Shown: in pieces, positions 797-34,655 of the stretch
Numbering within the stretch: position 1 is the first letter of the stretch
Layout of the letters: the number at the start of each line of letters is the position of its first letter
Assembly (NCBI RefSeq): GCF_029581355.1
Contig: NZ_CP120849.1
Coordinates: 5,054,501 to 5,118,500, forward strand
From: Parabacteroides chongii
GTDB lineage: Bacteria > Bacteroidota > Bacteroidia > Bacteroidales > Tannerellaceae
DNA: 64,000 nucleotides
Reading direction: 5' to 3'
Notes under the pieces: model-generated
Seen by the model: the letters and a program-made list of their open reading frames with translations, nothing else
The model's database searches: none
What the model was told of the DNA's origin: nothing
Made by a program: the position numbers and the translations under genes

Positions 797-3157
797 TCAT
801 TCTGATTTCAGGCTATCTACCGGGTTGGCATTGGAAGCACGCCAGCTCTGGAAAGTGACGGTTCCGACAGTAATAACCAGTACGATCAGCAAGGCCAACA
901 AATATACCCACCAATACATCGGTGTTTTATAGGCAAAGCTTTCCAACCACTTTTTAATGCCATAATATCCTACCGGGACAGCCAGCGCGAAACAGACCAG
1001 GACAATATAAATATACGACCGGTTCAACATCTCCAATATTTCCATATTCGTCGCACCATGCACTTTGCGGACACCGATCTCTTTCCGGCGGTATTGGGTT
1101 TCAAATACAACCAACCCAAAGACACCTACAAGCGATATAATAATAGCCAGTATACTGAACACCGTGATCAGGCTACGCAAGTTCTCTTCCTTATGATACA
1201 GTTCGTTAAATATCTCATCATAAAACTCGATATCATACGGATAAGACGGGTCTATATCTGCCATCGTATTACGGATATGGGAAACAGCACTGCGTATATC
1301 TGTTCCGGCTTTCAGGCGGATATAGGAAACAGTCATAGGAAAAGGTATATTACCTGTCACAAAAGCAATATTATTCTCTCCGCTACGGAGTGAAGTAAAC
1401 TTCACATCACCGGTCAGACCTACAATACGACCTGTTTTCCACGATGTTACTTGATCACCGGCTTCCATGTTTACTTCCATCTTAGCCGTATGGTTAAAGA
1501 TATACACAAAATCTTCCGACAGTTCATCTGCAGGCGAGAAATCACGCCCTTCCTCGACCGGAATACCCATGACACGCAGGAAATTCTGTGATACGGCTAT
1601 CATAAAGAAGTGTAATTCCTTTTCCTTTACATAACCGCCATTGGTGCTGTAACCATCCTTCGAACCTACTTTTTCCATAGCAAAAGCCACATCTTCGATA
1701 CCCGAATATTCTTTCAGACGATTCACATACGTATCGTGCGACTTATTATAGATCTCCCCGCTCAAACGGACAATAGCGATCTGATCCTTATCGAACCCCA
1801 AAGAATATCCGCGCATATAATTGTTCTGAAGGCGGACAAAGCTGGCGCCGATGATCAACAGGATGGAAACGATAAACTGAATGCTTATCAGGACCGTACG
1901 CAGCTTGCGCCCGGAAGGAGAAAGTCCGAAACTGCCTTTCAGTACCAACGCCGGCGGGAAAGAGGTCACATACCATGACGGATATAATCCGGCAACGATC
2001 CCGGTAAACAAGGCTACAACTCCAGTCAGTAATATAACAGGCAGGTTACTTACTATTGCCAGGTTTGCATCCACGAAAGGCAAGGCTTCCGTACGTCCCA
2101 ATATCCAAACAATGAATAAACTCAACAGCCAGGAAATCATGCTGATGATAGCTGCTTCCGCCAGCAGGGCACGTCGCAATACAGCATCCGGGCTACCCAA
2201 TACTTTCTGGGTATTGATACTCTTGATACGCATCGGTGTCAGTGATGTACTGAAGTTCGTAAAATTGATAGCAGCCACAATGATAATCAATAAAGCGATG
2301 AAGAACAGCAACATGGTCACTTCCTTATTTCCACTTCGGAAGATCGTTCCGTCCTGGCTCTCATTCATGTAATAGATACTTGTCAACGGAGTCAGTTTGA
2401 TACGTGTATCCTCCCCTTTATCTATCTTGGAGAAGTCAAAGTTGGCATTAAAATTATCCACTACGGTCTGTGCTGATTCAGGATTATCCAGTAACAGATA
2501 GCAAACATAATTACTAGCTCCGAAATTATCCCGTTGATAGGTTTCACCGATAGCTGTATAGATCAGGTTACGCATCTGGGTATTACCGGGAAAATCCTTA
2601 TAAACAGCTCCTACCGTATACTCGCGGTTATCTTTCGATTGTACACTTTCTTCCGCATGAAGTGCTTTTCCCACAGCCGGCTGGTCACCGAACATCTTGC
2701 GGGCTACACTCTCAGGCAGGATTACTTTTTCCGGATCATTCAGGCAATCGCGGTCCCCTTTAATGATCGGGAAATCGAACACTTTGGCTATATCCGGATG
2801 ACAAGTTTGTACCAACTCCCGGTAACCGATCTTCTGCCCGTTCTTCACAACAGAAAAATAGACAGCAGGATTGTACGGATAGATCAGGCTACCTGCTTCA
2901 ATATGGGGTGACGACTGGATAACCGACTCTACAAAAGCACGTGGCAGGATCAATCCAAAAGTACCTGCCTGTGTTAATTCAAGGCGATACACCCGATCGG
3001 CAGTCGGATGACAGCGATCAAAACTACGCTCGTAGTTCACCTGTATCAGAATAACTATAAAGGCAGCAAAAGCCACAGCCAACCCAGCCACGTTCAAAAG
3101 GGTCGCCATCTTGAAACGCCGCAATACGCTCAGAAAGTTTCTTAATATTGTTTTCAT
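797..3157 (-). CDS. FtsX/MacB-type ABC permease, type A (array member 1)
   Basis: Inner-membrane permease of 786 aa without an ATPase domain. Order of parts: TM1 (about 20-40), MacB-like periplasmic domain (about 42-275), three TMs (about 282-303, 334-354, 373-392), TM5 (about 421-441), second periplasmic domain (about 445-658), three TMs (about 662-684, 712-732, 751-772). It therefore resembles two fused MacB halves. Cytoplasmic hallmarks are SINTQKVLGS after TM2, ALVLKGSFGLSP before TM5, RRKEIGVRKVHGAT after TM6 and the tail NPVDSLKSE. It probably uses the single array ATPase at 23649-24329. It has its own sigma-54 promoter 25 bp upstream and is the terminal gene of the array. The substrate is unknown; family precedents are export of peptides or macrolides, lipoprotein release, and mechanotransmission. 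Confidence 0.88.
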   Translation of the reverse strand: MKTILRNFLSVLRRFKMATLLNVAGLAVAFAAFIVILIQVNYERSFDRCHPTADRVYRLELTQAGTFGLILPRAFVESVIQSSPHIEAGSLIYPYNPAVYFSVVKNGQKIGYRELVQTCHPDIAKVFDFPIIKGDRDCLNDPEKVILPESVARKMFGDQPAVGKALHAEESVQSKDNREYTVGAVYKDFPGNTQMRNLIYTAIGETYQRDNFGASNYVCYLLLDNPESAQTVVDNFNANFDFSKIDKGEDTRIKLTPLTSIYYMNESQDGTIFRSGNKEVTMLLFFIALLIIIVAAINFTNFSTSLTPMRIKSINTQKVLGSPDAVLRRALLAEAAIISMISWLLSLFIVWILGRTEALPFVDANLAIVSNLPVILLTGVVALFTGIVAGLYPSWYVTSFPPALVLKGSFGLSPSGRKLRTVLISIQFIVSILLIIGASFVRLQNNYMRGYSLGFDKDQIAIVRLSGEIYNKSHDTYVNRLKEYSGIEDVAFAMEKVGSKDGYSTNGGYVKEKELHFFMIAVSQNFLRVMGIPVEEGRDFSPADELSEDFVYIFNHTAKMEVNMEAGDQVTSWKTGRIVGLTGDVKFTSLRSGENNIAFVTGNIPFPMTVSYIRLKAGTDIRSAVSHIRNTMADIDPSYPYDIEFYDEIFNELYHKEENLRSLITVFSILAIIISLVGVFGLVVFETQYRRKEIGVRKVHGATNMEILEMLNRSYIYIVLVCFALAVPVGYYGIKKWLESFAYKTPMYWWVYLLALLIVLVITVGTVTFQSWRASNANPVDSLKSE

Positions 3158-3181
3158 ATTATTTGTATTTACCTTTTATCA

Positions 3182-3197
3182 TTCAAAATATATGCCA
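3182..3197 (-). promoter_or_regulatory. sigma-54 promoter of permease 1
   Basis: On the minus strand TGGCATATATTTTGAA matches the -24/-12 consensus TGGCACRNNNNTTGCW, with exact GG-to-(G) spacing and A for C in the -12 dinucleotide. The ATG is 25 bp downstream. Confidence 0.75.
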
Positions 3198-3250
3198 AAA
3201 AGTTATTTAGCTATATTTCAACTATTTATGCAAACAAGGCAAAACAACAA

Positions 3251-3288
3251 TGTCTAATAATTAGACACTTATGTATAATTATTAGACA
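3251..3288. promoter_or_regulatory. activator-site pair (UAS) for permease 1
   Basis: Two 17-bp palindromes, TGTCTAATAATTAGACA (3251-3267, perfect) and TGTATAATTATTAGACA (3272-3288), with centres 21 bp apart (two helical turns). They lie 53 bp upstream of the sigma-54 element, as expected for dimers of an NtrC-type activator. Confidence 0.8.
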
Positions 3289-3312: not shown

Positions 3313-5688
3313 TTATTCAGACTTTATGCTCTCAACCGGATTAGAGTTGGCTACATGCCAGTTCTGGAAAGTGACCGTAACGAAAGTAATAACAGAGATA
3401 ATAACAAAAGCCAGCAGGAATACCCACCAATACATTGGTGTACGGTAAGCGAAGTTTTCCAACCAACGGTACATTCCATAAAAAGCGACCGGAGTAGCCA
3501 GCACAAAACAAGCGGCAAGGATGATCAGGTAGCTTCTGTTGAACATGACCAGTATCTGGGAGGTAGACGATCCCAACACTTTACGGACAGCCACCTCTTT
3601 CCGGCGGTACTCACTCTCGAATACAACCAGGCCGAATACACCGACAATAGAGATAAAGATTGCAATAACGCTGAACAGGGTGATCAGGTTGCTGATCTTC
3701 AATTCCCTTTCGTATGTCTGCTGCAGGATCTCGTCATAGAATGTAGTTTTGAAAGGATAAATCGGATCTATCTTTGTTAAACAGGCTCGCACATGTTCCA
3801 TGGCAGCCCGCAGGTCGCTGCCCGCTTTCACTTTTACGTAAGCAGCAGAATAATATTTACTGTCGACTTCCTGTCCCCATCTGTATTTACCCCATACATA
3901 AAAGGTCATCGGCGACACTTCATTTCGGAAAGAAGCGAATTTGACGTTCGAAATAAAACCGACGATCTCATCGCCATCGATCTTCTCTCCCAGTTCCAGA
4001 TTATACATCTCCCGGGCTTTCTCATTAAAAATATAGCTCCCGTTCTCTTTCAAATCATCTTCGGGGCGGAAATCACGACCGTCTGTTATCTCGATTCCCA
4101 TGACACGCAGGAAAGAGGGAGAAACAGGGATACACTGGAAATTGATATCCTGGTCTTTGTACATACGCCCCCAACCCATATAAAAGTCACGGCTGGACAG
4201 CACCTGTTCCGCATAAGTGATATCTTCTATTCCGGAGAACGACTTCACCTCGCTGGTCAGGACATCCTGGTTTTTATTGACTTTACTGTTCAATTCAACC
4301 ACGATCAGTTCGTCTTTATCATATCCCAAGGGGGTATTTTGCATATACCGGTTCTGTAAATACATGAACAGAGAACTGATGATCAGGATAAATGAAGCGA
4401 CAAACTGGATACTTATCAGTGCACTTCGAAGTACCCGCCCTTTCGGAGACAAACCAAAACTGCCTTTCAACACCAACGCCGGAGGGAAAGAAGTGATATA
4501 ACAAGCCGGATAAATACCCGCTAATACACCTACCGCCACAGCTATGGCAGCTGTAGTCATAATGATACCCGACTGTGCCGAAAAAGACATGTCAGCATCT
4601 ACCAGAGATGCGACAAAAGTCTGCCCGGCAATAAATAACAAACCCAGCGAAATAAGGTAAGCCACGATACTCACAATGACAGCTTCTCCCAGCAAGCTCG
4701 TCCGGAGCACGCTATCGGGACTACCCAACACTTTCTGTGTATTGATACTCTTGATACGCATAGGTGTTAAAGCGGTACTGAAATTGGTAAAGTTAATGCC
4801 GGCAATTAATAGGATGACAAAAGCGATTGCAAACAGAACATGCATCGTCTGCCGGCTGGCTTTCGGCATGGAATCGAAAGAGACATTCGTCAGGAAATGT
4901 AACTTAGGCAGCGGTGTCATCATCAGTTCAATGCCGTCTTTCTCCCACTTGAAATCTTTTCCGAATTGCTGGGAGGCATCGAAATTCTTTTTGAAGTTTT
5001 CTTTGACAACTTCTATGTTGGAAGGATCATCCAGACGGAAGAAAAAGAAATAATTCTGGTTGCCGTACTCATTGTAATTTTCTTTATCGGACATTCGCCG
5101 GTAAATAATATTCCTGACAGACGAGTTACGGGGGAAGTCTTTAAAGACACCGCTGATCGTAGCCAATGTATTTTCGGACTCCGCACCCATCAAGCGTTTA
5201 CCTATAGCCGATTCATTTCCGAACAGGCGGTGCGCCATACTTTCAGGGATTATAGCTGTTTCCGGTTGATCGAGTGCTGTCTCATTCCCTTCTACCATAT
5301 CAAAATGGAATACACGGGTAATCCCGGCTGTCGTGTTTACAACGGGGTCCTTGAAATTCTGCCTTTCGCCGCCTTGGTCCACGCTATAAAACAACTCGGA
5401 ATTCCAGGAAGACATAATCATTCCGGCTTTTACATGCGGGGATGATTCTGTAAATCCTCTTGCAAAAGGACGGCTGATAACAGCACTCATGCTGCCTTGA
5501 AAATCCATATCCATCCGATAGATCGAATTGGCTTCCGGCTGGCAGGAGTCGAAATAATTGTCGTAATTTACCTGCATCATGATCACCATAAAAGCGGTAA
5601 AAGCGATGCTTAATCCCAACACATTCAGAAGTGTCGCCATTTTAAAACGGCGAAGCACGCTGATAAAGTTTCTAAAAAGAGTTTTCAT
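3313..5688 (-). CDS. FtsX/MacB-type ABC permease, type A (array member 2)
   Basis: This 791-aa permease has the same eight-TM, two-periplasmic-domain plan as its neighbours. It is recognised by SINTQKVLGS in the first FtsX half, KGSFGLSPKGR before TM5, YRRKEVAVRKVLGSST in the second half and the tail NPVESIKSE. The first periplasmic domain (about residues 45-275) differs strongly from that of member 1 while TM and cytoplasmic segments are nearly the same. There is no sigma-54 element in the 90 bp between its start and the stop of member 3, so it is probably the second gene of a member 3-member 2 operon. No terminator follows its stop, so read-through into member 1 is possible. Confidence 0.88.
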   Translation of the reverse strand: MKTLFRNFISVLRRFKMATLLNVLGLSIAFTAFMVIMMQVNYDNYFDSCQPEANSIYRMDMDFQGSMSAVISRPFARGFTESSPHVKAGMIMSSWNSELFYSVDQGGERQNFKDPVVNTTAGITRVFHFDMVEGNETALDQPETAIIPESMAHRLFGNESAIGKRLMGAESENTLATISGVFKDFPRNSSVRNIIYRRMSDKENYNEYGNQNYFFFFRLDDPSNIEVVKENFKKNFDASQQFGKDFKWEKDGIELMMTPLPKLHFLTNVSFDSMPKASRQTMHVLFAIAFVILLIAGINFTNFSTALTPMRIKSINTQKVLGSPDSVLRTSLLGEAVIVSIVAYLISLGLLFIAGQTFVASLVDADMSFSAQSGIIMTTAAIAVAVGVLAGIYPACYITSFPPALVLKGSFGLSPKGRVLRSALISIQFVASFILIISSLFMYLQNRYMQNTPLGYDKDELIVVELNSKVNKNQDVLTSEVKSFSGIEDITYAEQVLSSRDFYMGWGRMYKDQDINFQCIPVSPSFLRVMGIEITDGRDFRPEDDLKENGSYIFNEKAREMYNLELGEKIDGDEIVGFISNVKFASFRNEVSPMTFYVWGKYRWGQEVDSKYYSAAYVKVKAGSDLRAAMEHVRACLTKIDPIYPFKTTFYDEILQQTYERELKISNLITLFSVIAIFISIVGVFGLVVFESEYRRKEVAVRKVLGSSTSQILVMFNRSYLIILAACFVLATPVAFYGMYRWLENFAYRTPMYWWVFLLAFVIISVITFVTVTFQNWHVANSNPVESIKSE

Positions 5689-5778: not shown

Positions 5779-8136
5779 TCATTCTGTTTTTATACTTTCT
5801 ACCGGATTTTCGCTGGCTGTACTCCAATTTTGGAACGAAACAATCAGGATCGTGATAGCTGAAACAAAAACAAAGGCAATCGCATACACCCACCAATACA
5901 AAGGTATCTTATAGGCAAAATATGACAGCCACCGGTTCATTGCATAATAAGCAACAGGTATCGACAGGATGAAACAAATTACCAAAATACGCGCATATAC
6001 TTTATTGAACATGATCAATATCTGTGAGGTAGTTGCACCATGTACTTTTCGGAGACCTATTTCTTTTCTCTTATACTCACTTTCGAAGATCACTAAGCCC
6101 AAAACCCCTACTATCGAAATAAAAACAGCTACCAGACTGAACAGGGAGATCAGCCAACCGATACTCAACTCACGTTTATAGAGATTATTCAGGATCGTAT
6201 CATAAAACGATACCTCAACCGGAAAATCCTTGTCTACCGAAGTAAACGCTTTACCAATGGAGGCAATGGCTTCGCGGATATTGGCTCCGGCTTTTATCTT
6301 TATATAGGCATATCTCGGATGAAAATCTTTTTCATCCGGTACATAAAAAGCCATCGGTTCGACAGTGGTACGGAAAGAAGCATACTTTACATCATCTATA
6401 AAACCGGCGATCACGGCAGGAGGTACTTCAACATAAGCATTTCCTGTAATATATTCACCTGCCACCAGGTCATACTGTAACCTGGCTGTTTCATTAAAGA
6501 TATAAGCTCCTCCTGCCGATGCTGCATCTTCCTGATAAAAAGCACGACCGGATATAACCGGAATATTCATTACCTGAAGGAAATTGGGATCAACTGTGAA
6601 TAATTTGAATGTTAGATCATTGTTTCTGTAGCCCCGTCCAAAAGTAGAATATTGATCTCCTCCTGACAATAAATCTTCGGCAAAAGCCACCTCTTGTATA
6701 GACGACTCATTCTTTAACAGGCTTTCCAATGTTCCTGTATTCTTTATCAACTTCCCGTTCAACTCAACAATAGCAACCTGATCTTTATTAAAGCCCAAAG
6801 AAGAAGAAACCATATAATGATTCTGCAGATAAATAAACAAGGCAGCTATAATCAATGCAAAAGAGATGACAAACTGGAAAGAAATAAGAAGACTTCTTAA
6901 TTTTCTTCCGGCAGGAGTCAACCCGTATGAACCTTTCAACACCAATGCCGGAGAAAAAGAAGTGATACGCCAGGCAGGATATACCCCCGCTAAAACTCCC
7001 ACTGTTATGGCCAATATCCCCGTCAATGCCAACAAAGGAATATTGGAAGCCAGCGACATGTCTCCACTTATCATATCTGCAAGCCAGGTATTCGCCATTC
7101 CTCTGACAATAAACAGCGAAATAACAAAAGAAACTAGACAAATCATTACTGCCTCTACCAGCATGGCACAACGTAATATCCTATCGGAACCTCCCAGTAT
7201 TTTCTGCGTATTAATACTACGGACACGTATTGGAACTAATGCATTGCTGAAGTTTGTAAAATTGATCCCGGCAATAAACACTATCAATAGAGCCACAGTG
7301 AACAGAATCAAGACCAATGTACGATTACCTTTATCTTTCAATGAATCGAACTGGGAATCCGCTTCATAATAAATATCGGTTAATTGGGTAAGCCTTACAT
7401 CACGCGTTTCCCAATCATACTCTTGCCTGTTTAAATGTTTTTTGAAATTAGCTATTATCTGATCTTTTTGGTTAGGATCATCCAATAAAACATACAACTG
7501 ATAACCATTAGCATTCCAGTTATCCTGGTCTACTTTCCCATTGATTCCTTTATACACAGCATTCTGTATCACAGAATTTGCTGGAAAATCTTTATATACG
7601 CCACCGACTGTAAATGATGAATTATCGGTCATCAACAGTTTACCGACAGCCTGATCTTCTCCAAAAAACTTTTGGGCCTGACTCTTTGAAATCAGAACAG
7701 TACCCGGATTCTCTACACTCTCAGCATTACCCTCCAGCATTTGGAAATCAAAAATAGCGGCATATTCCGGAGTCATACCGTTCACTGTACACCAAAAGCC
7801 AGCATCGTCATTATTTCCGGTTTCAGCCTTTAAGGCCAGTCGAGCTCCCCAAGAATTAAGCAATGCTCCTTTCTCTATATGAGGAGACGATTGAATAAAA
7901 GCATTGGCAAAAGGAGGAGATACAACTACCTGATTTCCCCAATCCGGCGTATAAAGTCCTACCCTGAAGATCCGTTCCGCATTTTTCTGATACCTGTCGA
8001 ATCCCCAGTCATATTGCAGCTGGATCATTAAAATTATAAAAGCTGCAAAAGCAACACTAAGCCCCAATACATTCAACAGGGTTGCCACCTTAAACCGACG
8101 AACTACTCCCAACAGATTCCTGATAATTGTTTTCAT
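5779..8136 (-). CDS. FtsX/MacB-type ABC permease, type A (array member 3)
   Basis: A 785-aa permease and the most divergent of the type A set. The first cytoplasmic loop reads RSINTQKILGGSD (others have KSINTQKVLGS), the linker is KGSYGLTPAGRKLR, and the second loop is YKRKEIGLRKVHGAT. The tail NPVESIKTE is kept. TM1 follows the shared N-terminal basic segment (VVRRFKVATLLNVLGLSVAF, about residues 11-30). It is first gene of a two-gene unit with member 2, starting from the sigma-54 element at 8219-8234 and an 83-bp leader region. The gene looks somewhat more AT-rich than its neighbours by eye, which I did not quantify. Confidence 0.87.
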   Translation of the reverse strand: MKTIIRNLLGVVRRFKVATLLNVLGLSVAFAAFIILMIQLQYDWGFDRYQKNAERIFRVGLYTPDWGNQVVVSPPFANAFIQSSPHIEKGALLNSWGARLALKAETGNNDDAGFWCTVNGMTPEYAAIFDFQMLEGNAESVENPGTVLISKSQAQKFFGEDQAVGKLLMTDNSSFTVGGVYKDFPANSVIQNAVYKGINGKVDQDNWNANGYQLYVLLDDPNQKDQIIANFKKHLNRQEYDWETRDVRLTQLTDIYYEADSQFDSLKDKGNRTLVLILFTVALLIVFIAGINFTNFSNALVPIRVRSINTQKILGGSDRILRCAMLVEAVMICLVSFVISLFIVRGMANTWLADMISGDMSLASNIPLLALTGILAITVGVLAGVYPAWRITSFSPALVLKGSYGLTPAGRKLRSLLISFQFVISFALIIAALFIYLQNHYMVSSSLGFNKDQVAIVELNGKLIKNTGTLESLLKNESSIQEVAFAEDLLSGGDQYSTFGRGYRNNDLTFKLFTVDPNFLQVMNIPVISGRAFYQEDAASAGGAYIFNETARLQYDLVAGEYITGNAYVEVPPAVIAGFIDDVKYASFRTTVEPMAFYVPDEKDFHPRYAYIKIKAGANIREAIASIGKAFTSVDKDFPVEVSFYDTILNNLYKRELSIGWLISLFSLVAVFISIVGVLGLVIFESEYKRKEIGLRKVHGATTSQILIMFNKVYARILVICFILSIPVAYYAMNRWLSYFAYKIPLYWWVYAIAFVFVSAITILIVSFQNWSTASENPVESIKTE

Positions 8137-8345: not shown

Positions 8346-10736
8346 CTAATTATCTTTTATGCTATATACCGGATTCTCATTTGCTGTCCGCCAGTTCTGG
8401 AAAGTTACTGTCAGGATCGTGATAAAGAAAATCAGAGCGAAAGACAAGGCAAATACCCACCAGTAAACCGGAGTTTTATAAGCAAAGTTTTCCAGCCATT
8501 TATTGACAGCATAATAGGCAGCCGGAGCTGCCAGTACAAAACAAACAGCCAAAATACGTATGTACGTTTTATTGAACATGATCAGGATTTGAGAAGTAGT
8601 CGAACCCAATACCTTACGGACACCTATTTCCTTCCGGCGATACTGGCTGTCGAACACGACCAAACCGAAAACCCCGACCATCGAGATAAAGACAGCGATC
8701 AGGCTGAACAGAGTAATCAATGCACCCAGGTTTGTCTCCTTCTCATACAAATTATTCAGTACATCATCAAAGAAGCGGACATTAAAAGGATAATCCGATT
8801 GGATTTCACTCAACACCTTTTTTACATGCTCCATAGCAGCCAGCTTGTCCGTTCCGGCTCCCACACGGATGTAGCCGAAGGTAGATTGTTCGTTACGGCT
8901 GGTTCCGGGTACATAAAAGGCCATCGGCGTAATCTCCATCCGGAAAGAGGCCGCTTTAATATCCGGGCAGAAACCAACTATTTCCGCTCCGTAGATTTTA
9001 TCACCCAACTGAATATCGTAGGCTTTCCGGGCTGATTCGTTGAAAACGTAGACACCCTCTGCCGTCAAGGCATCTTCGGGACGGAAGTCACGTCCTTCAT
9101 TGACCGGAATACCTAATACCTGCAGGAAAGAGGGATCGACCGGCAGACATTGATACTGGATGTGCTTACCATTCAACTCACGTCCCCAGGTCGAATACTG
9201 GTCCTGTCCCGACAACTGAAATCCAGCTGCAGTCACATCCTCGATACCGGAGAAAGACTTCAGACGATTCTTGAAAGAATCCTTATTTTTCATAACTTTA
9301 GCAGTCAGGTCGGTCACGATAATTTCATCTTTGTCATATCCCAGGGAACTTGTCCGCATGTAGTTGTTTTGCATATACATAAACATGGCCCCGATGATCA
9401 AAGCAAACGAAGCGATGAACTGTACGCTGATCAGTACATTCCGCAGCAACCGTCCTTTAGGAGAAAGTCCGAAACTACCCTTCAACACCAGGGCTGGTGA
9501 GAAAGAGGTAATATAGTAAGCCGGATAAAGTCCTGCCAACACACCAAGCAGGATGGCAAGCACGCCGGTTACGCTAATCAATACCGGATGAGCCGTCAAC
9601 GAGAGATCAGCTCCGACCAATGCCTTGAGTGGAGTATCAGCAGCCAGATAGACAGCCACCAGTGCCAATATAAATGCGATGAAACTGATACCGACCGCTT
9701 CCATCAATAGAGAGAAACGCAAGGTACTATCGGAACTTCCCAATACTTTCTGTGTATTGATGCTCCTGATACGCATCGGCGTGAGTGCCGTACTGAAATT
9801 GGTGAAATTGATTCCTGCAATAAGTATAATCACACAGGCAATAGCGATAAGCACCAACAGCGTCTGCCGACTCGTTTTAGGAGCCATATCGAAGGCTACA
9901 TCCGTTACGTAATGCAGTTCCGGCAATGGGGTCAACTGGAAATTCGCAGTTTTGTTTCCCCACATATTTTTCTCCAGATCGTTTTTCTTGTAATAATCCA
10001 GAAACTCGCTGACCAGGTTTTCAGCCGATGCAGGATTGTCCAGAAGTAGATAGGCATTGTAACTGGAGTTTCCCCAGTCATGCAATCCTTCTTTATCATC
10101 TATTTTCAGATAGACAGCATTCTGAAGGATACCGTTCACGGGGAAATCGCGGTAAACCCCTCCTACCGTATAATCGATCTCGGCAATGGTAAACATTCCC
10201 GAAAAGCGTCCTTGTGTATCTGCAGCTTTCATGTGACGTCCGACGGCAAACTCCGTACCGAATATCTTCTGTGCCATGCTGGCCGGAATCAGTATCTTCT
10301 CGGGATCTTCCAAAGCCTTTGCCGAGCCATCCAGCATATCGAAAGTAAACACATCGGCAAATGAAGAATAGACCGGCAAATTCGGCTCCATATAGCTGAC
10401 CCGCTCTCCTGTGCCCACATCGGCCAGAAAAACCGTTTGGCTGTACATCGGATAAGTCAGCGCACCGGCAACAATATGCGGTGAGAAATTGAAAAACGCA
10501 TCCGCCAACGGCCTGGAGAGAACAGCTTGTAAGCCATCATCATCGCCCCACTTCATTTCCAGCCGGTAAATCCGGTTGGCCTCTTTATGGAATTTATCGA
10601 AATTCCTGTCATAATCGACCTGCATCATGATTACCATAAAGGCTGCAAAAGCAATGCTCAGTCCCAATACATTCAACAGTGTCGCCATTTTAAACCGGCG
10701 CAATACACTTAACAAGTTTCTAATAATAGTCTTCAT
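8346..10736 (-). CDS. FtsX/MacB-type ABC permease, type A (array member 4)
   Basis: A 796-aa permease, the longest of the set and clearly the closest paralog of member 5: both end NPVYSIKDN, share similar insertions in the first periplasmic domain around residues 165-180, and have homologous flanking DNA. Visible hallmarks are RSINTQKVLGSSD after TM2, ALVLKGSFGLSPKGR before TM5 and YRRKEIGVRKVLGSTT after TM6. It is a single-gene unit: own sigma-54 promoter 33 bp upstream of the ATG and own intrinsic terminator (8255-8282). The gene plus its promoter looks like the unit that was duplicated to give members 4 and 5 (inference from the matching intergenic regions). Confidence 0.88.
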   Translation of the reverse strand: MKTIIRNLLSVLRRFKMATLLNVLGLSIAFAAFMVIMMQVDYDRNFDKFHKEANRIYRLEMKWGDDDGLQAVLSRPLADAFFNFSPHIVAGALTYPMYSQTVFLADVGTGERVSYMEPNLPVYSSFADVFTFDMLDGSAKALEDPEKILIPASMAQKIFGTEFAVGRHMKAADTQGRFSGMFTIAEIDYTVGGVYRDFPVNGILQNAVYLKIDDKEGLHDWGNSSYNAYLLLDNPASAENLVSEFLDYYKKNDLEKNMWGNKTANFQLTPLPELHYVTDVAFDMAPKTSRQTLLVLIAIACVIILIAGINFTNFSTALTPMRIRSINTQKVLGSSDSTLRFSLLMEAVGISFIAFILALVAVYLAADTPLKALVGADLSLTAHPVLISVTGVLAILLGVLAGLYPAYYITSFSPALVLKGSFGLSPKGRLLRNVLISVQFIASFALIIGAMFMYMQNNYMRTSSLGYDKDEIIVTDLTAKVMKNKDSFKNRLKSFSGIEDVTAAGFQLSGQDQYSTWGRELNGKHIQYQCLPVDPSFLQVLGIPVNEGRDFRPEDALTAEGVYVFNESARKAYDIQLGDKIYGAEIVGFCPDIKAASFRMEITPMAFYVPGTSRNEQSTFGYIRVGAGTDKLAAMEHVKKVLSEIQSDYPFNVRFFDDVLNNLYEKETNLGALITLFSLIAVFISMVGVFGLVVFDSQYRRKEIGVRKVLGSTTSQILIMFNKTYIRILAVCFVLAAPAAYYAVNKWLENFAYKTPVYWWVFALSFALIFFITILTVTFQNWRTANENPVYSIKDN

Positions 10737-20748: not shown

Positions 20749-20783
20749 AAAAAGGTGACGCCGCCTTGAAAAACAGCGTCACC
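20749..20783 (-). terminator. intrinsic terminator of permease 9
   Basis: On the minus strand an 8-bp GC-rich stem (GGTGACGC / GCGTCACC) is followed by TTTTTATG. It lies some 420 bp after the stop of member 9, leaving a long 3' untranslated region. Confidence 0.7.
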
Positions 20784-20800
20784 CCATATTAGAAAGAAAT

Positions 20801-20825
20801 GACGCCGGAAATCACCTCCGGCGTC
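20801..20825. other. strong hairpin in the 3' region of permease 9
   Basis: A 9-bp perfect stem (GACGCCGGA / TCCGGCGTC) with a 7-base loop. It shares the GTGACGC core with the terminator hairpin next to it. Confidence 0.6.
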
Positions 20826-21022
20826 ACCCTACAATTATTGAATATCAATCTACATGCGTCACATTTTTTTTAGTGACACCGAAAACTGATCAAACTTCAA
20901 AGTGTAGTATATCTCATCTATTCCCTTTGATAGTATTCTCCGGCAACTATCTTCCTTCCGAACATCCACTAACAGCTAATTTACTATGCATTAATAGCTC
21001 CCTGCTTATTTTCTATTCTCAG

Positions 21023-23526: not shown

Positions 23527-23558
23527 CTTCTTACTGATTTCATTTAGGCGAGAGAATA

Positions 23559-23588
23559 ACATATCCTACCTTCACAGGTAGGATATGT
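23559..23588. other. intercistronic hairpin between ATPase and permease 9
   Basis: A 12-bp perfect stem (ACATATCCTACC / GGTAGGATATGT) with a 6-base loop. On the minus strand no T run follows, so it is more likely an RNA processing or stability element, or a weak attenuator, than a full terminator. Confidence 0.6.
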
Positions 23589-26961: not shown

Positions 26962-29343
26962 TTATTCCGCTTTCAGACTGTCGATCGGATTCTCATTGGC
27001 CGTCGCCCAGGCACGATACAATACGCAACCAATGATGACGAGGTAAACGAAGAAAGCCGCGATGATAAACAGGAAGGCATTCAGATGGATACGTTCCGAG
27101 AATTTCTCCAGCCAGTCGGAGGCACTGATATAGGCAATCACTACACCGATCGTAAGAGCAGGAACGGCTATATAGGAGATGTCGCGCGAGATCATCCGGA
27201 GGATGCTGGCGGCAGTCGCACCGTTGACCTTGCGGATCGCTATCTCACGTCCGCGGCGGTTGGTTTCGTCGGCAGTATATCCCAGCAGTCCGATCAGTGC
27301 AATGATCAGGCAGACGATGCCGCTGATGAAGATGGAGTCGCGGAACTCACGGTCGCCTTGGTATTGCTGAGCCAGACTCATTTTATAGACAGAAGCTTCC
27401 ACCACTTTATCCGGCATTGCATCTGTCAGGATCTGGTTGACCTGTGCTATATTGTCCGATGTCATATCATGCATCTTTATCAAGATATTTTCCGTAGGAG
27501 CAATTCCACCCGGCTTCATGTCGTAGAAGAAAACCGAGGCACGGGTGTCGGGACCTTTGATGGAGCCGATACGGAAGTCCTCATAGACACCGCAAATGGT
27601 GTATACCTGATTTCCATTACTATGTTCGGATATCATCACACCTTTACCAATAGCACTTCCTGTCCAGCCCGCCACCTTCTCCATCTGTTCGACAAAACGA
27701 CGGCTAACCATTATTTTATCGCCGTTAGCCTCACCCTGGCGGAAAGCGTGGCCCTCCAGAATAGGTATCTCCATCAGTTCAAAATAATTATCACCGACAC
27801 TGTACATATCGGCAATGTTAAACAGTTCGCGGTTATCACCCGGCAAACCGACATTATTACCCGAAGGATATTTGAAAGGCAACTCGCAACTGGCCGACAC
27901 CAGGTCTACCTGCGGCAAACGACGCAGTTCGTCCATCGCCCGCTCACGCTCCAGGGCACTTACACCGCGGGTATTACAAAAGATCAGATTCTCGTAGGCA
28001 TAGCCGGGATCACTCGAAATCATAGCACTATACTGGCGATTGATCGTGATCAATAATGCCACCAGATAGGCCGTAGCGACAAACTGTACAAAAAGCAGGC
28101 ACAGTTTCCAGTAACGCTTCGATTCTTTTACGCTACGGAAAGCCGATGCCACCGGAATACGGAGGAAGAGCCAAGTCGGCACCAGGCAGGTTACGGCGAA
28201 TACAACGATACAAATACCCGACAAAATCATCAAAGTAGGTACCGTAAACAAAGCAGACAGCGAAGCCGACAACAATTCCTCCACCTTCCCTTTACAAAGG
28301 ATCAACAGGAAAGCTCCCAGCAAGAGTGCCAGTAACAGATGCAGCAAGGATTCGGAAAAGATCATTCCGAATATATTTTTACCCGAAGCTCCGTAACATT
28401 TATGTACCGCCACTTCTTTCGTACGTCCGATCAGTGTAGAGATAACGACCAGCACATAATTCAGCACGGCTATAAGAATCAGGATCGTAGCCAGGAAGAG
28501 AAGCATGGCATTCATGTCTTTCACCTCCTTATCATTATTATGGATATCCTGCAAAGGCGAGATGGTATAGAACAAATCGACACCGGCCTGTTTCAGCGCT
28601 TCCATATCCTGGTTGCGTTCCTGCATACGGCGGATAGCCGGGGCAAGCCCTTCCGGATCAGTACCCGGAACCAGTTTTACATAGGCGATGTAACGGTCGT
28701 TACCCAGCCAGTTGGTCGTACTCCATTCCGGCATGCTTGCCAGCGATCCCAGCACATCATAACGCAGATGGCTGTTTTCGGGTATATCTTCAAATACGCC
28801 ACCGATGGTTTGCGGAGCGTTCCGGTTTGCGTCACGAACGAAGGTCTTGCCGACCACGTTCCCTACTCCGCCCATTTTCTCGGCCAACGAGCGCGAGATC
28901 ATCGCATAACCGGGACGGGACAGAACATCTTTCGGATCTCCCACCAGAATCGGACGGGGGAATATATCGAAAAAGCTGGTATCGGCAAGCAGGATGGTCG
29001 CTTTATAAAATTGTTTCTCCGGCGACATGATCAGTTCATTGGCCGGTCCTATGCGGGTATAGCGCGTAGCGACTTCCACCTCCGGAACCTCCGCTTTCAA
29101 ACCCGGAGCGACGGCACCGCTCACCTGTCCCCAGGTATCTTTCTTCCCGTCTTTGTTCAAGCCGGACTTGACCAGATAAATACGGTCGTTGTCGGGATAA
29201 AAGTTATCATACGAACGTTCGAAACATACTTTTGCAACCAACACCAGACCCATTGCCAGTCCAACGGCAAGCGCCAGTATCTTAATCCCATTGTTCCTTC
29301 CCTTCTTAAACAGGGAGCGGAATGCCATACTAAAATTCCTCAT
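26962..29343 (-). CDS. FtsX/MacB-type ABC permease, type C (array member 11)
   Basis: A 793-aa type C permease. Type C starts AFRSLFKKGRNNGIKILALA and its TM1 (about 20-40) continues into CFERSYDNFYPDNDRIY. Loops are RTKEVAVHKCYGASGKNIF (a His-Lys-Cys-Tyr variant of the coupling signature) and RGREIAIRKVNGATAASILR; before TM5 it has VASAFRSVKESKRYWK instead of the KGSFGLSP or RGTFRKQ segments of types A and B. The tail is NPIDSLKAE. The start is 11 bp after the stop of member 12, so the two type C genes are tightly co-transcribed and may form a functional pair, though each already has two FtsX halves. Confidence 0.88.
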   Translation of the reverse strand: MRNFSMAFRSLFKKGRNNGIKILALAVGLAMGLVLVAKVCFERSYDNFYPDNDRIYLVKSGLNKDGKKDTWGQVSGAVAPGLKAEVPEVEVATRYTRIGPANELIMSPEKQFYKATILLADTSFFDIFPRPILVGDPKDVLSRPGYAMISRSLAEKMGGVGNVVGKTFVRDANRNAPQTIGGVFEDIPENSHLRYDVLGSLASMPEWSTTNWLGNDRYIAYVKLVPGTDPEGLAPAIRRMQERNQDMEALKQAGVDLFYTISPLQDIHNNDKEVKDMNAMLLFLATILILIAVLNYVLVVISTLIGRTKEVAVHKCYGASGKNIFGMIFSESLLHLLLALLLGAFLLILCKGKVEELLSASLSALFTVPTLMILSGICIVVFAVTCLVPTWLFLRIPVASAFRSVKESKRYWKLCLLFVQFVATAYLVALLITINRQYSAMISSDPGYAYENLIFCNTRGVSALERERAMDELRRLPQVDLVSASCELPFKYPSGNNVGLPGDNRELFNIADMYSVGDNYFELMEIPILEGHAFRQGEANGDKIMVSRRFVEQMEKVAGWTGSAIGKGVMISEHSNGNQVYTICGVYEDFRIGSIKGPDTRASVFFYDMKPGGIAPTENILIKMHDMTSDNIAQVNQILTDAMPDKVVEASVYKMSLAQQYQGDREFRDSIFISGIVCLIIALIGLLGYTADETNRRGREIAIRKVNGATAASILRMISRDISYIAVPALTIGVVIAYISASDWLEKFSERIHLNAFLFIIAAFFVYLVIIGCVLYRAWATANENPIDSLKAE

Positions 29344-29354
29344 ATTTATATCAT

Positions 29355-31730
29355 TTATTCTGATTTCAAACTTTCCACCGGATTGGATACGGCAACCATC
29401 CAGCTACGATAGACAACGGTACCTAAAATGAGCAACAGTACCCCTGCCACACTCAACGTGAACACACCGACATTCATCGATATCTTTTCGGCAAATTGCT
29501 GTAACCACTTCTCGCCTGCATAATAAGAGGCACCGGCTCCCAGCAACAAAGCGGGAAAAGCCATCCAGGTCACATCGGAAGCGATCAGCGAAAGGATATC
29601 CTTTTCCGTTGCCCCGTTGATCTTACGAACGGCTATTTCTTTTCCGCGCCGGTTGGTTTCATCATTGATATACCCGATCAGCCCGATCAGAGTGATGATC
29701 AGCGTTACGATACCGCCCAGCATCACCGCGTTGCGGAAAAGGCGCGAAGAGTTATACATATTCGCCATGCTGACACTGTAAGAAGATACAGGCATCTCCT
29801 TATCCGGTAAAGTGGCCTTGATGGTTTCGTCCAGCCGTGCCATGTTCTCCTGCGACATTTTATTCAGTTTAATGACCAGCGTATTCTGCGGACGACCGCT
29901 ATAAAACAGCGCCGAAGGTCCCATCAATTCGCTTCCGATAGCCCCGACACGAACATCGTCGTACACGCCTGCTATCTCGAAATCGTTAGGCGTACCATGA
30001 CCGCTCACATATATTTTCTTTCCTATCACACCGTCTTTCCAGTCGAGTGCCAAAGCCAGTTTGTCGGCCATCATCCGGCTGATCATTACCACGCGGGAAG
30101 AATCGGAATAAGAATGATCGAATCCTTTTCCCTGGATAACGGACATTTCCATCAAAGAGGTATAATTGGCATTCGCCCCGTAAAGGTCGGCGAAATGAAT
30201 AATGGTTTCCTTTGTTCCCGGACGATAAACCATATCCCCTGAACCGCTGAAAGCAGGTAAGCTACTGCAAGTAGATACGTCCTCCACCTCCGGAAGTTTT
30301 TTAAGTTCATCCATCAAGGCGCGACGGGAAGAACCCGGCACACCGTCCATCCTGCAATAAGCCAGCCGTTCGTATTTATATCCCGGATTATCGTTCACCA
30401 TTCTATTATACTGCAAACCGATAACCACCAGCAGGCATACTAGAAAACCGACGGCCACAAACTGGATAAACAACAGCACTTTCTTCCATGAACGGCGTGA
30501 TTCTTTATAGGAGCGAAATACCGATGCTACCGGTATTTTCGAAAATAGTTGCGAAGGCAGTAATCCCGCCACTAAAAATACAATTACACAAACAGCTACC
30601 AGCATCAGAACGGTATCGACCGTAAACAGCGATAACAACGACGCACTGAGCAATTCTTCCACCATCTCACGGAGTGCCAGTATCAACAAAGCAGATATCC
30701 CCAGCGAGACAAGCAGGTTAAGAAAGGTTTCCGAAAAGATCATGTCCGAGATATTCCATCCGGATGCACCGTAACATTTATGTACGGCAATATCTTTCGA
30801 ACGGGTTACCAGTGACGAGATCACCAGTAAAACGTAATTCATCAAGGCTGCAAAAAGGATAGCAAATGCAATAGCCACGAGCATGACAGCCATCCGTTTC
30901 GTTGCCGGCGACTTGGCATAAAGTTCCTCCAGCGGACACAACATCAGAGCGTAATCGATTCCCCGCTCTTTCAATTGGGCAGAGTCGACATGGCGGTCGA
31001 GCATCTCGGCCATCGGCTGCAACAGGTTTTCGGCAACGATACCGGGCTCCAGGCGAACATACCCATTATAACTATCTCCCCCAAACCATTGATCGAGGTT
31101 CGACCACCCCATTACTGTCTCGAAAGAGGCCAGTGAAACCAGCATGTTATATTTCAGATGGGTATTATCCGGTACTTCTTCAAACACTCCGCCGATCGTA
31201 AAAAGATGTCCGGGAAAAGAGGCGATTTCAAAAGTCTGTCCTACCACATCTTTTCCACTGCCTATCTTAGCAGCTATCTTTTCGGATACAAGGGCATACA
31301 ATGGACGCGAAAGAGTCTCCTTCGCATTACCGGCCAACACTTTACGGGGAAGGACATCAAAGAAGTACTGGTCTGCCATTACAAAGTTACCGGTGTATTT
31401 TTTCTTATCGGAAGTAGTAAAAAGATACTCCCCTATTACATTGGCACAGGTAGCCGATTCCACACCGGGTATTTCAGCTTTCATCCCCGACGGAACACCT
31501 GCACTTACATGCGGATAGCCTTCTATTTTCTTCTCTCCTACGGATACATTTTCCTGTATGGCAAAAACACGATCCGACTCAGGATAGAAGTTATCATAAG
31601 ATAGTTCGAAACATACTTTAGCAATCAGTACCAAGCCCATGGCCAGACCAACGCCCAATGAAATTATTTTAATTCCATTATGTCTTCCTTTCTTAAAAAG
31701 GGAACGGAAAGCGATATGTACATTCTTCAT
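29355..31730 (-). CDS. FtsX/MacB-type ABC permease, type C (array member 12)
   Basis: A 791-aa type C permease with loops RSKDIAVHKCYGASGWNI and RRGKEIAVRKINGATEKDIL and tail NPVESLKSE. It is the permease nearest to the adaptor and channel genes, separated from the adaptor by 280 bp that carry a repeat-rich element (31785-31991). Only a degenerate -24-like TGGCAT with 1-bp-short spacing is seen before its start (about 31770-31784) and there are no activator sites, so it probably depends on read-through from the TolC promoter. It may be the primary partner of the adaptor and channel (inference from position). Confidence 0.88.
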   Translation of the reverse strand: MKNVHIAFRSLFKKGRHNGIKIISLGVGLAMGLVLIAKVCFELSYDNFYPESDRVFAIQENVSVGEKKIEGYPHVSAGVPSGMKAEIPGVESATCANVIGEYLFTTSDKKKYTGNFVMADQYFFDVLPRKVLAGNAKETLSRPLYALVSEKIAAKIGSGKDVVGQTFEIASFPGHLFTIGGVFEEVPDNTHLKYNMLVSLASFETVMGWSNLDQWFGGDSYNGYVRLEPGIVAENLLQPMAEMLDRHVDSAQLKERGIDYALMLCPLEELYAKSPATKRMAVMLVAIAFAILFAALMNYVLLVISSLVTRSKDIAVHKCYGASGWNISDMIFSETFLNLLVSLGISALLILALREMVEELLSASLLSLFTVDTVLMLVAVCVIVFLVAGLLPSQLFSKIPVASVFRSYKESRRSWKKVLLFIQFVAVGFLVCLLVVIGLQYNRMVNDNPGYKYERLAYCRMDGVPGSSRRALMDELKKLPEVEDVSTCSSLPAFSGSGDMVYRPGTKETIIHFADLYGANANYTSLMEMSVIQGKGFDHSYSDSSRVVMISRMMADKLALALDWKDGVIGKKIYVSGHGTPNDFEIAGVYDDVRVGAIGSELMGPSALFYSGRPQNTLVIKLNKMSQENMARLDETIKATLPDKEMPVSSYSVSMANMYNSSRLFRNAVMLGGIVTLIITLIGLIGYINDETNRRGKEIAVRKINGATEKDILSLIASDVTWMAFPALLLGAGASYYAGEKWLQQFAEKISMNVGVFTLSVAGVLLLILGTVVYRSWMVAVSNPVESLKSE

Positions 31731-32010: not shown

Positions 32011-33261
32011 TCATTCCAACACCAGGACTTCATTATCCTTATAGCTTTCGTAGCTTGATACGATCACTTTTTCACCGGCTTCCAAACCTTCGGTCACTTC
32101 ATAATACTGCGGGTTCTGACGACCGATCTTAATCTTGCGGCGATAAGCCTTTTTGCCATCTTTATCCAAAACGAATATCCAGCTGCCTCCTGTACTCTGG
32201 AAGAACGTTCCGCGCGGGATGATGATACTTTCCGTCGGCTGTCCTAATTCCAGGTTGATATAATACGTTTGTCCGCTGCGGATATTGTCAGGACGTTCGC
32301 CGGTAAAGACAAAGTCGGTACGGAACTTACCTTCACGAACTTCCGGATATACTTTACGTACAGCCAGTGCGAAACTTGTACCCTGACGGTCGAAGGCTGC
32401 ACCCAATCCCGGTTTAACGCGGTCGATATAGTGTTCGTCGATCATGGCTTCTATCTTATAATCGGAAAGGTCGTTGATCTGACCGATCTTCATACCGGCT
32501 GATACATTCTGTCCGAGGACTACATCCAGCAAACCCAGTTCGCCGTTGATCTGTGAACGGACATTCAGATGTTCTTTCCGTTCGTGCACCAATTGGATGT
32601 TACGGCGCATATTAGCCAAACTCGTTTCCATTTCGTCCATCTGGATCGTACGGGAAATTGAATCCTGACGCAAACGTTCAACGACAAGAGCATATTTCTT
32701 GGTTGCCAGTTCATAATCTTCCTTCGCTTTCAGAAATTCTTCCTTGGCGATCAGGTTTTCATCATAGAGCTTCTTTTGTTGCGTATAAGCACGGCGTGAA
32801 CGGGCGATGTCGACATCGAGCTGAGCTTTCTCCAACTGGTTATTCAGCTTGTCCTGTTCCATCGCTACCTGGGTATTACGCAGGAAGTTCTGTTTTTCAG
32901 CCAACTGAGCTTCCGCATCCAGAATCTGCAAATCGAGACCGGAGTTGGAAAGACGGACAATGACATCGCCTTTTTTCACCTGGGCACCTTCTTCAACTAC
33001 CTTCTCCTGTACGATACCGCCTTCTTCCGGGCTCAACTGCACGACAGTGATAGGCTGTACCTGTCCGTCTACGCGGACGAAATCATTGAATTGTTCCTTA
33101 GTCACATTACCGATACTGATTCCGCGAGCATCGACTTTCAGGGTCGATGCATGATCGCCGAAAATGATCCATCCCACCAGTACCAGGAATAAAACACCAC
33201 CACCTACATAAGGTAAATGTTTCTTTTGAATGCCTTTTTTCTTTTCTAACTGTATATCCAT
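32011..33261 (-). CDS. periplasmic adaptor (HlyD/MacA-type membrane fusion protein)
   Basis: A 416-aa protein: short cytoplasmic N-terminus, one membrane anchor (about residues 18-36), a lipoyl/barrel-sandwich half (about 50-95, with GGIVQEKVVEEGAQVKKGDV), a long alpha-helical hairpin (about 100-235), the second lipoyl half and beta-barrel domains. This is the class that bridges an inner-membrane permease and a TolC-like channel. It has no biotin-type lysine requirement and no lipobox cysteine. It lies 53 bp after the TolC gene in the same transcript and is the only classical adaptor in the window, so it presumably serves the array permeases, at least members 12-10. Confidence 0.9.
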   Translation of the reverse strand: MDIQLEKKKGIQKKHLPYVGGGVLFLVLVGWIIFGDHASTLKVDARGISIGNVTKEQFNDFVRVDGQVQPITVVQLSPEEGGIVQEKVVEEGAQVKKGDVIVRLSNSGLDLQILDAEAQLAEKQNFLRNTQVAMEQDKLNNQLEKAQLDVDIARSRRAYTQQKKLYDENLIAKEEFLKAKEDYELATKKYALVVERLRQDSISRTIQMDEMETSLANMRRNIQLVHERKEHLNVRSQINGELGLLDVVLGQNVSAGMKIGQINDLSDYKIEAMIDEHYIDRVKPGLGAAFDRQGTSFALAVRKVYPEVREGKFRTDFVFTGERPDNIRSGQTYYINLELGQPTESIIIPRGTFFQSTGGSWIFVLDKDGKKAYRRKIKIGRQNPQYYEVTEGLEAGEKVIVSSYESYKDNEVLVLE

Positions 33262-33314
33262 TGTTGTATGTTTTTATTTCTTTATTGTTTGTTTCCTAGT
33301 TATTCGCGTTATTC

Positions 33315-34655
33315 TCAATGAATGCCTTCAATCAAAGGTTTCCCTTTATAATAATCGACCAGCTTGCATTTCATCAGATACATCAGCTTCCGCTGCAGCA
33401 GGTCGGCTTTTGACAGAAGTAATGTATTTGCACTGGTTTGCAGATCGATCGGGCTCATCAGACCTTCTTCAAATTTACGTAAAGTTACCTGATAAGCAAT
33501 TTCATCCGCTTTTGCTTTTTTATCCATCTGAATAGTTTCTTTGGCATAGCCCTCACGGTCGAGAATAGCTTGTTCGATGGCTGTCTCCAACTGACGGAGC
33601 ACTTCTGTCTGTTGTTCCTGGGCGATACGCATATTATTGCGTGCCTTACGCAGGTTGGTCAGACGACTCAATCCGTCAAATAAAGGGAAACTCAGGTTGA
33701 AAGAGATATATTCACCACGGTTATTTTTAAACTGATTGCTAAAAGAAGCGGGAGCCTTATCTGCTTTCAGATTCTCATAATAATTCGTAGAAACCCCTGC
33801 TGAGAAAGAAATGGATGGTAACAAACGTCCTTTTGCCATCATGTATTGCATTTTATAGGATTTCAACTGAAGTTTCGCCTGCAAGGCTGTCGGATTATTT
33901 TCTGATGCGTAATCATATATTTCATTAACCGACTCCATCATTGTTGCATACGATTTATCCAAAAGCATCGTATCTACATCCAGTTCCATGTCGGAAGGGT
34001 AATTCATATTCTGCTTCAGTGTCAACAAAGCCGTATTAAGCAAATTCTGCTGGTGGGTCAGATTGTAATCGTTGGCTGCTACCTGCGCTTCTATCTGTGC
34101 CACATCTGCTTTACCTTTCAATCCCAGCTCCTCCTGACGGCGTGTTTTATACAAGATACGGCTATTTTCTTCTAATTGTTCAGCAGCTAGTTTAACTGTT
34201 CCCTGGTAATATACCACATCCATAAAAGCCTGCATCGTATTGATTGCCAGGTCGTCTTTTTCCTTTTGGATATCATTCATACCTAACTGACGGTTTGCTT
34301 TTGCCATACGCCACTGGTTGACTAACTGCCCTCCGTTAAATATAGGAATAGAAACATTCAGACCATATCCGTTATTGAAAGTAGATGTATTATTATACAC
34401 GTTAGTCTCCGGGTCAATCGAACGTCCGAAACTGTATTGCGCTCCTACACTTGCACTCATAGACGGGAAGAAAGAGGCTACAGAGGAATTTAACTCTGCT
34501 TTATAAGAATCACTGGTATAAGTTTGTTTCTTCACTTTCGGACTGTTTTCAACGGCATAATGCATGCATTCATCCATTGTCCAGAGCTTTTCCTGGGCCA
34601 CGGCGGCTGTTGCCAGGCTAAACGAAAGAATCGATGTAAATATTATCTGTTTCAT
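33315..34655 (-). CDS. TolC-family outer-membrane efflux protein
   Basis: A 446-aa protein with a signal peptide (MKQIIFTSILSFSLATAAVA, cut before QEK) and the two OEP repeats rich in long helices (about residues 25-215 and 225-435) that form the TolC trimer channel. An in-frame ATG lies seven codons upstream (34676), but the signal peptide begins cleanly at 34655, and the longer form would run almost into the sigma-54 element at 34683-34698, so 34655 is chosen. It is first gene of the operon continuing with the adaptor and permeases 12, 11 and 10. It provides the outer-membrane exit of the export system. Confidence 0.9.
   Translation of the reverse strand: MKQIIFTSILSFSLATAAVAQEKLWTMDECMHYAVENSPKVKKQTYTSDSYKAELNSSVASFFPSMSASVGAQYSFGRSIDPETNVYNNTSTFNNGYGLNVSIPIFNGGQLVNQWRMAKANRQLGMNDIQKEKDDLAINTMQAFMDVVYYQGTVKLAAEQLEENSRILYKTRRQEELGLKGKADVAQIEAQVAANDYNLTHQQNLLNTALLTLKQNMNYPSDMELDVDTMLLDKSYATMMESVNEIYDYASENNPTALQAKLQLKSYKMQYMMAKGRLLPSISFSAGVSTNYYENLKADKAPASFSNQFKNNRGEYISFNLSFPLFDGLSRLTNLRKARNNMRIAQEQQTEVLRQLETAIEQAILDREGYAKETIQMDKKAKADEIAYQVTLRKFEEGLMSPIDLQTSANTLLLSKADLLQRKLMYLMKCKLVDYYKGKPLIEGIH

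Follow-up and report, generated by a model that had tools for sequence, protein, structure and literature searches.

The usual picture of a MacB-type tripartite exporter has a single permease served by an ATPase of its own, which in MacAB-TolC is fused to the N-terminus of the permease. Here we examine a stretch of 64,000 nucleotides from Parabacteroides chongii (contig NZ_CP120849.1, positions 5,054,501 to 5,118,500; hereafter the window), whose minus strand between 797 and 34676 carries twelve intact FtsX/MacB-type permease genes together with one ATPase gene, one HlyD-type adaptor gene and one TolC-type channel gene. The array resembles MacAB-TolC in its MacB_PCD and FtsX domains, in an FtsX half that matches MacB chains, in its HlyD/RND adaptor and in its TolC-family channel, but its ATPase is a separate gene, its permeases are fused and of double length, many permeases accompany one ATPase, and the genes belong to a sigma-54 regulon. 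We consider it probable that these genes specify a single tripartite ABC system, organised at the level of a regulon, whose permeases are interchangeable; comparative genomics argues that the permeases can be exchanged like cartridges on a shared motor and conduit, united by one promoter code even where they lie at distant loci.

YbbAP of Escherichia coli, in which YbbA is the separate ATPase, as the entry title implies, is the top Foldseek match of both permeases that were modelled, and it shares with them a double-length permease chain; like YbbAP, the array combines two periplasmic domains and two FtsX-type transmembrane (TM) sets in one chain with an ATPase encoded apart. YbbAP has only one permease, however, and we know of no adaptor or TolC partner for it. 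The darobactin exporter DarBCD (NCBIfam NF038007/8/10) supplies the best model for the ATPase and the adaptor and the second best for the three of twelve permeases that were scanned, but every score falls below its cut-off (DarB 67-85 against 700 bits, DarC 210 against 450, DarD 285 against 375), and no darobactin-type biosynthesis gene was found among the window genes scanned. ADOP (TIGR03434), also a duplicated permease, is the best NCBIfam model for the same three, though at 220.5 (P1A), 178.7 (P6B) and 173.7 bits (P11C) against a cut-off of 622.

One ATPase serving several permease systems encoded elsewhere is familiar from MsiK/MsmK and from ECF modules. MceG does the same for the Mce1 and Mce4 importers, according to the available part of one account (PMC9947336); systems of this kind resemble the array in that respect and differ in being importers with no tripartite exporter parts. 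Sigma-54 promoters have been linked computationally to FtsX/COG0577 permeases in Bacteroidia (PMC12316311), in an account whose available part mentions no dedicated regulator, enhancer architecture, shared core or dispersed permeases. Computationally predicted sigma-54 control of such permeases and common ATPases for Mce importers are already on record, and we found in the open-access literature, subscription journals and preprint-only work aside, no description of such an array, of its common ATPase or regulator, or of one exporter core joined to dispersed permeases by one enhancer code.

Anatomy and divergence of the permease array

The twelve permease genes are uninterrupted open reading frames (ORFs) of 776-796 amino acids (aa), all on the minus strand between 797 and 31730, and form three classes with 43-70% identity inside a class and 19-24% across classes. 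Class A comprises P1A (797..3157, 786 aa), P2A (3313..5688, 791 aa), P3A (5779..8136, 785 aa), P4A (8346..10736, 796 aa), P5A (10897..13284, 795 aa) and P8A (18120..20492, 790 aa); class B comprises P6B (13313..15655, 780 aa), P7B (15752..18100, 782 aa), P9B (21199..23562, 787 aa, or 775 aa from a likelier in-frame alternative start) and P10B (24527..26857, 776 aa); and class C comprises P11C (26962..29343, 793 aa) and P12C (29355..31730, 791 aa). The ABC ATPase, a DarD/MacB/LolD-like protein of 226 aa (23649..24329), is encoded among them on the same strand, as are the periplasmic adaptor (HlyD/RND_mfp, 416 aa, 32011..33261) and the TolC-family outer-membrane channel (33315..34655), which likely starts at the ATG at 34655, the listed TTG ORF to 34676 running into the promoter region.

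Profiles for MacB_PCD (PF12704) and FtsX (PF02687) exceed their cut-offs in all twelve permeases. The FtsX match is split into two stretches in each, and MacB_PCD matches in two stretches in seven and in a single stretch in P6-P10; the AlphaFold model of P10B nonetheless contains a second periplasmic domain where the profile matched once. Both models, P10B (predicted local distance difference test, pLDDT, 83.4) and P5A (pLDDT 82.9), place 4+4 TM helices in one chain, so that each permease is predicted to be a fused 4+4 pseudo-dimer of two MacB/FtsX halves, as in YbbP. No ABC ATPase domain (ABC_tran) match was reported in any of the twelve, the ATPase being a separate gene. The initial annotation, made from the letters of the window, was right in counting twelve intact permeases (of 775-796 aa, the lower figure agreeing with the likely start of P9B) and in denying them an ATPase domain. 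Its assignment of two MacB-like domains and two FtsX halves to each permease holds for FtsX throughout and, by profile, for MacB_PCD in seven, the second domain of P10B coming from the model. The ATPase that it called a single LolD-type protein is indeed single among the permeases, but the label is loose: in the best 25 NCBIfam models DarD leads and LolD scores 220 bits (cut-off 308), both under cut-off. Among the NCBIfam models shown for the three permeases, the ATPase (best 25), the adaptor and the channel, only the general adaptor model TIGR01730 passes, with 136 bits against 94.9; the channel clears PF02321 (174 bits, cut-off 22) and stays under the narrower TolC model TIGR01844 (142.5 bits, cut-off 225).

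Diversity lies mainly in the periplasmic domains, as had been proposed: within classes these are 35-45% identical, compared with 59-89% in the segments that contain the coupling helices (borders set by hand on P5A), and the same contrast appears when 25 class B and 30 class A proteins are aligned. Ratios of nonsynonymous to synonymous divergence (dN/dS) against P. goldsteinii are 0.04-0.11 for seven permeases whose dS is finite (0.42-1.7, with its higher values uncertain), while the ATPase has 0.02; P6B was compared with P. gordonii only. Selection on every copy, argued earlier from the intact state of all twelve, is accordingly upheld where it was measured, most synonymous distances being high, while P12C was saturated and P3A, P4A and P10B had no orthologue value. 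Synonymous sites are near or at saturation in four paralogue pairs, in the conserved segments too, which rules out recent tandem amplification, gene conversion or an assembly duplicate for these pairs. P1A and P2A (797-5688) are closer to P. goldsteinii (dS 0.42 and 0.57, against 0.84 to saturated for the other permeases compared), which suggests exchange between species or a locally different history. Plasmid carriage was also considered and rejected, a megablast search with 18000-36000 having matched two Parabacteroides distasonis records only in part, at 74-77% identity. In P. faecis JCM 18682 the adaptor is 100% identical to that of the window and the three permeases in view are 97-99% identical.

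Promoters, regulator and kinase

A reading of the array as one block does not survive inspection of its intergenic regions. Six sigma-54 -24/-12 sites lie 40-98 bases upstream of the starts of P1A, P3A, P4A, P8A, the ATPase and the channel gene, and at each stand paired palindromes of consensus TGTCTAANNNTTAGACA, spaced 21 bases, the nearer being 53-55 bases from the sigma-54 site. All are on the minus strand: before P1A the site is at 3182-3198 with palindromes at 3251-3267 and 3272-3288; before P3A at 8219-8235, with a terminator-like hairpin at 8254-8283 and palindromes at 8289-8305 and 8310-8326; before P4A at 10769-10785, with a terminator-like hairpin at 10805-10834 and palindromes at 10840-10856 and 10861-10877; before P8A at 20537-20553, with palindromes at 20607-20623 and 20628-20644; and before the ATPase at 24402-24418, with palindromes at 24473-24489 and 24494-24510. 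The sixth site (34683-34699) lies between the channel gene and a divergent regulator gene and has three palindromes, at 34754, 34775 and 34827 (region 34683..34843). Strong terminator-like hairpins are found downstream of P4A, P5A and P9B, two of them between P9B and the P8A promoter (20752..20829, minus strand). These features suggest six transcription units: channel-adaptor-12C-11C-10B; ATPase-9B; 8A-7B-6B-5A; 4A; 3A-2A; and 1A, which forms a unit by itself. A single operon is ruled out by the six promoters and by the terminator-like hairpins between several units.

A first scan with the sigma-54 consensus, allowing three mismatches, gave 30 sites against 26 expected, the whole set being not above chance, so the sigma-54 assignment depends on the placement of the sites, the palindromes and the combined pattern rather than on the consensus alone. 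The palindrome itself occurs 15 times in the window against 2.8 expected (three mismatches allowed), and none of 100 shuffles reached 15. Across 17 relatives we searched whole genomes with a strict pattern, the palindrome followed after 52-57 bases by the sigma-54 core, with targets assigned by hand. There were 49 matches in 16 of the 17, and the reversed pattern gave none in the same genomes. Forty-five of the 49 precede genes of the system (13 channel-adaptor, 12 ATPase, 20 class A, B or C permeases), and the remaining four precede a conserved RNA-like locus (two) or other genes (two). The latter are both in one relative (G003, at C83:43913 and C102:24085), and encode a PF00144 beta-lactamase-family lipoprotein and a DUF3836 secreted protein. 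A looser scan of 20 stretches chosen around known genes gave 18 matches, of which 14 stand before genes of the system, two before the RNA locus and two before others. Permease clusters with neither ATPase nor adaptor (n=8) carry the strict pattern in four cases and the looser one in seven. The pattern would allow further members to be found by sequence alone.

The gene divergent from the channel gene encodes a sigma-54-dependent response regulator of NtrC type (34906..36258, plus strand, 450 aa) with a Sigma54_activat domain (PF00158, 233 bits) and a Fis-type helix-turn-helix (PF02954, 53.6 bits). Each of the 17 relatives has one orthologue, of 61-95% identity, four of them having paralogues of 55-57% as well, and linkage and co-occurrence lead us to pair this regulator, provisionally, with the palindromes and promoters. 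Next to it lies a histidine kinase gene (36261..37577, plus strand, 438 aa, PAS + HATPase). As judged by eye, the N-terminus of the kinase consists of two hydrophobic helices joined by a loop of few residues, with no periplasmic sensor domain, and this layout is recognisable in 35 of 38 aligned sequences.

Such a layout fits Bce-like sensing through the permeases. In the Bce modules of Gram-positive bacteria the kinase lacks an extracellular sensor domain, the BceB permease has ten TM helices and the Bce regulator is not of the sigma-54 type; BceAB-RS thus resembles the present locus in joining an FtsX-fold permease to a two-TM kinase that lacks such a domain, and differs in having no adaptor or channel and a ten-TM BceB in place of a fused 4+4 TM double permease. 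The permeases might accordingly be mainly receptors, whose ATPase-powered cycling is read by the kinase while the regulon amplifies the matching pumps. This account is unlikely, if by no means far-fetched: the TM hairpin of the kinase shows little conservation (its mean top-residue frequency is 0.37, that of the ATPase domain 0.73), its cytoplasmic PAS domain could itself be the sensor, the TolC-type channel and adaptor, both absent from Bce modules, imply export, and in six relatives the regulator is encoded apart from the channel gene. We hold as rather unlikely a combined version, in which about a dozen rapidly diverging permeases are pumps and at the same time the sensory outposts of a single kinase that has no sensor domain of its own; cycling of any of them on the common ATPase would then fire the regulon and raise both the whole repertoire and a regulatory RNA. 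If true, the system would be a Gram-negative equivalent of Bce modules, with many receptors and a tripartite exporter as its base.

One core and many permeases across relatives

The reading of one exporter with interchangeable permeases draws chiefly on gene counts in the 17 relatives, where genes within 5 kb were counted as one cluster. These genomes hold 92 permeases (45 class A, 24 class B and 23 class C; one truncated class A gene of G006 is included, and the broken class A genes G003:C79, in fragments, and G004:C3, with a stop, are excluded), with 1-12 per genome, so that twelve is not a conserved number. Against these stand only 20 cognate ATPases of 81-98% identity, one or two per genome, and 17 adaptors, one per genome (71-94% identity, the next best match being 48%). 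Three relatives have two ATPase copies, in two cases 95-96% identical and in the third identical. Adaptor and ATPase are in separate clusters in 12 of the 17 genomes; on single contigs of near-genome length they are about 276 kb apart in G015 and more than 1.3 Mb apart in G014, if that contig is circular. Twenty-six permeases lie in clusters with no ATPase, 16 next to the adaptor and 10 alone, and for 24 of these no other ATPase was found within 10 kb among the matches listed, which reach down to about 39-41% identity; inspection of the whole list by eye agreed, though weaker ATPases may be missing. The exceptions are G012:C15, which also has an ATPase ORF of 33% identity 3 kb away, and G016:C2. 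A stand-alone class A gene in G007 (C2:1781941, a 480-bit match) is intact, its promoter being found in the looser scan. Permeases that lack a neighbouring ATPase thus most likely use one in trans, if they work.

The ATPase is therefore encoded apart from several permeases that have no other close cognate, in all 17 relatives, three of them with the near-identical second copy. The fixed ATPase, adaptor and channel with variable permeases envisaged by the initial annotation are well supported by these comparisons, and dedicated ATPases for individual permeases, which it had named as evidence that would refute it, were not met in the relatives. Mean identities over 105 pairs are 48% for reciprocal-best permeases, 87.5% for the ATPase and 77% for the adaptor; the pairs are drawn from 15 of the 17 genomes, leaving out G008, whose ATPase is cut by a contig end, and G009, which is not represented in control family X, and hold no adaptor values for G001. 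The median ratio of permease to ATPase divergence is 3.7-3.9, whereas two systems whose ATPases are dedicated give 1.3 and 2.3. The TolC-type channel (33315-34655) diverges much faster between genomes, at 57% mean identity, than the adaptor.

From the anatomy, the promoter architecture, the conservation and the lack of further cognate ATPases in the relatives, all read directly from sequence, we infer physical sharing, the pairing of regulator with enhancers, the direction of export and the kind of substrate. The conserved coupling helices of an eight-TM permease would recruit the single ATPase in two copies, and the permease would dock onto the single adaptor and TolC-type channel; exchanging the permease would change what the periplasmic domains capture and leave motor, adaptor and channel constant. 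The sigma-54 regulator, under the kinase that lacks a sensor domain, would act through enhancers of paired palindromes, set at a constant distance, to turn on core, permeases and RNA-like locus, and the pumps would most likely clear diverse envelope-active amphiphiles or peptides. Because each permease is modelled as a fused pseudo-dimer, interchangeable single-permease pumps are favoured over mixed dimers. Obligate A/B/C heterodimers are disfavoured by the fused 4+4 chain and, weakly, these being drafts, by the absence of class B from G005 and G013 and of class C from G005 and G010. The term combinatorial used earlier is apt for interchangeable complexes and not for mixed ones, the draft genome G005 having one permease only. 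If this is correct, gut Bacteroidales would have a cheap route to widen or change envelope defence by gain or loss of single genes, and ATPase, adaptor and regulator are predicted to be single points of failure for the whole pump family.

Several observations weigh against this reading. Conservation of the ATPase is only marginally above that of the dedicated ones (87.5% compared with 86.1% and 83.2%; it has the higher identity in 69 and 90 of the 105 pairs, respectively), so extra-slow evolution is, alone, no proof of sharing, and the divergence ratio reflects fast permeases rather than an exceptionally constrained motor. G011 lacks the strict promoter pattern, the looser scan of a stretch of it found no paired match either, and the stand-alone permease G016:C5 has neither the strict nor the looser pattern. 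The counts of ATPases and permeases come from 17 relatives, several of them draft assemblies with contig breaks. Coupling motifs differ among the three classes, perhaps a sign that their partners differ, and other ATPases of 56-78% identity in the relatives might energise stand-alone permeases.

The last two points would suit independent partners, with stand-alone or distant-class permeases working on other ATPases, only the ATPase-linked ones on this, and co-regulation reflecting a common stress; each relative has at least 32-58 ABC ATPase matches. We find this distinctly unlikely, however, since the strict search placed the promoter before no other ATPase in the 17 relatives, several of the other close ATPases adjoin permeases of their own (such as G001:C1:2055980, G003:C98:20708 and G014:C1:2547906), and the 24 ATPase-less permeases noted above have no alternative within 10 kb among the matches listed. 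An apparently dedicated sister system is present in four relatives (G001:C1:2053542-2064786, G002:C16, G003:C101 and G004:C3), with a regulator of 55-57% identity, an adaptor of 47-48% and either one permease or two; three of these relatives also have an ATPase of 71-73% there.

It is very improbable that the permeases instead form FtsEX-like signalling complexes that regulate periplasmic enzymes. The FtsX fold does include the non-transporting FtsEX, according to the available part of one account (PMC8277102), FtsEX chains occur among the structural matches, and a beta-lactamase-family lipoprotein joins the regulon in one relative, but co-regulation with a TolC-type channel and an HlyD-type adaptor and the MacB/YbbP-like layout speak for transport. 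Least credible of all is an ordinary, mostly redundant tandem family sharing nothing functional beyond its neighbourhood, which the multi-permease clusters of other FtsX systems in these genomes and the broken class A copies in G003 and G004 would suit, and which purifying selection, strongly diverged paralogues and conserved promoters on dispersed members contradict.

The RNA-like locus and neighbouring genes

A seventh promoter in the window (43845..44260, minus strand), with palindromes at 44223 and 44244 and sigma-54 sites at 44152-44168 and 44032-44048, precedes the RNA-like locus (about 44036-43850). Folding gives z-scores of -5.1 for 44036-43845 and -4.2 for 44156-44076, ORFs on the transcribed strand are no longer than 50 aa, and the locus is probably a conserved structured noncoding RNA; nothing in the window reached the gathering threshold of an Rfam family. 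The RNA is conserved in P. gordonii and P. goldsteinii, where a single promoter precedes it; by comparison, the window version has an extra promoter and a short terminator-like insert upstream. The 11 other relatives searched yielded only one 28-base match (G006).

Beyond the RNA-like locus lies a second exporter operon (44264-51278, minus strand) of a TolC-type outer-membrane efflux protein (OEP), an NPCBM-associated protein, an ABC ATPase and two ABC-2 membrane proteins; it has a sigma-54 site at 51278 with none of the palindromes near. A further pair of sigma-54 response regulator and kinase is encoded close by (53874-56488, plus strand). At the opposite end, a gene for a small RRM-type RNA-binding protein (457-702, plus strand) adjoins the permease array.

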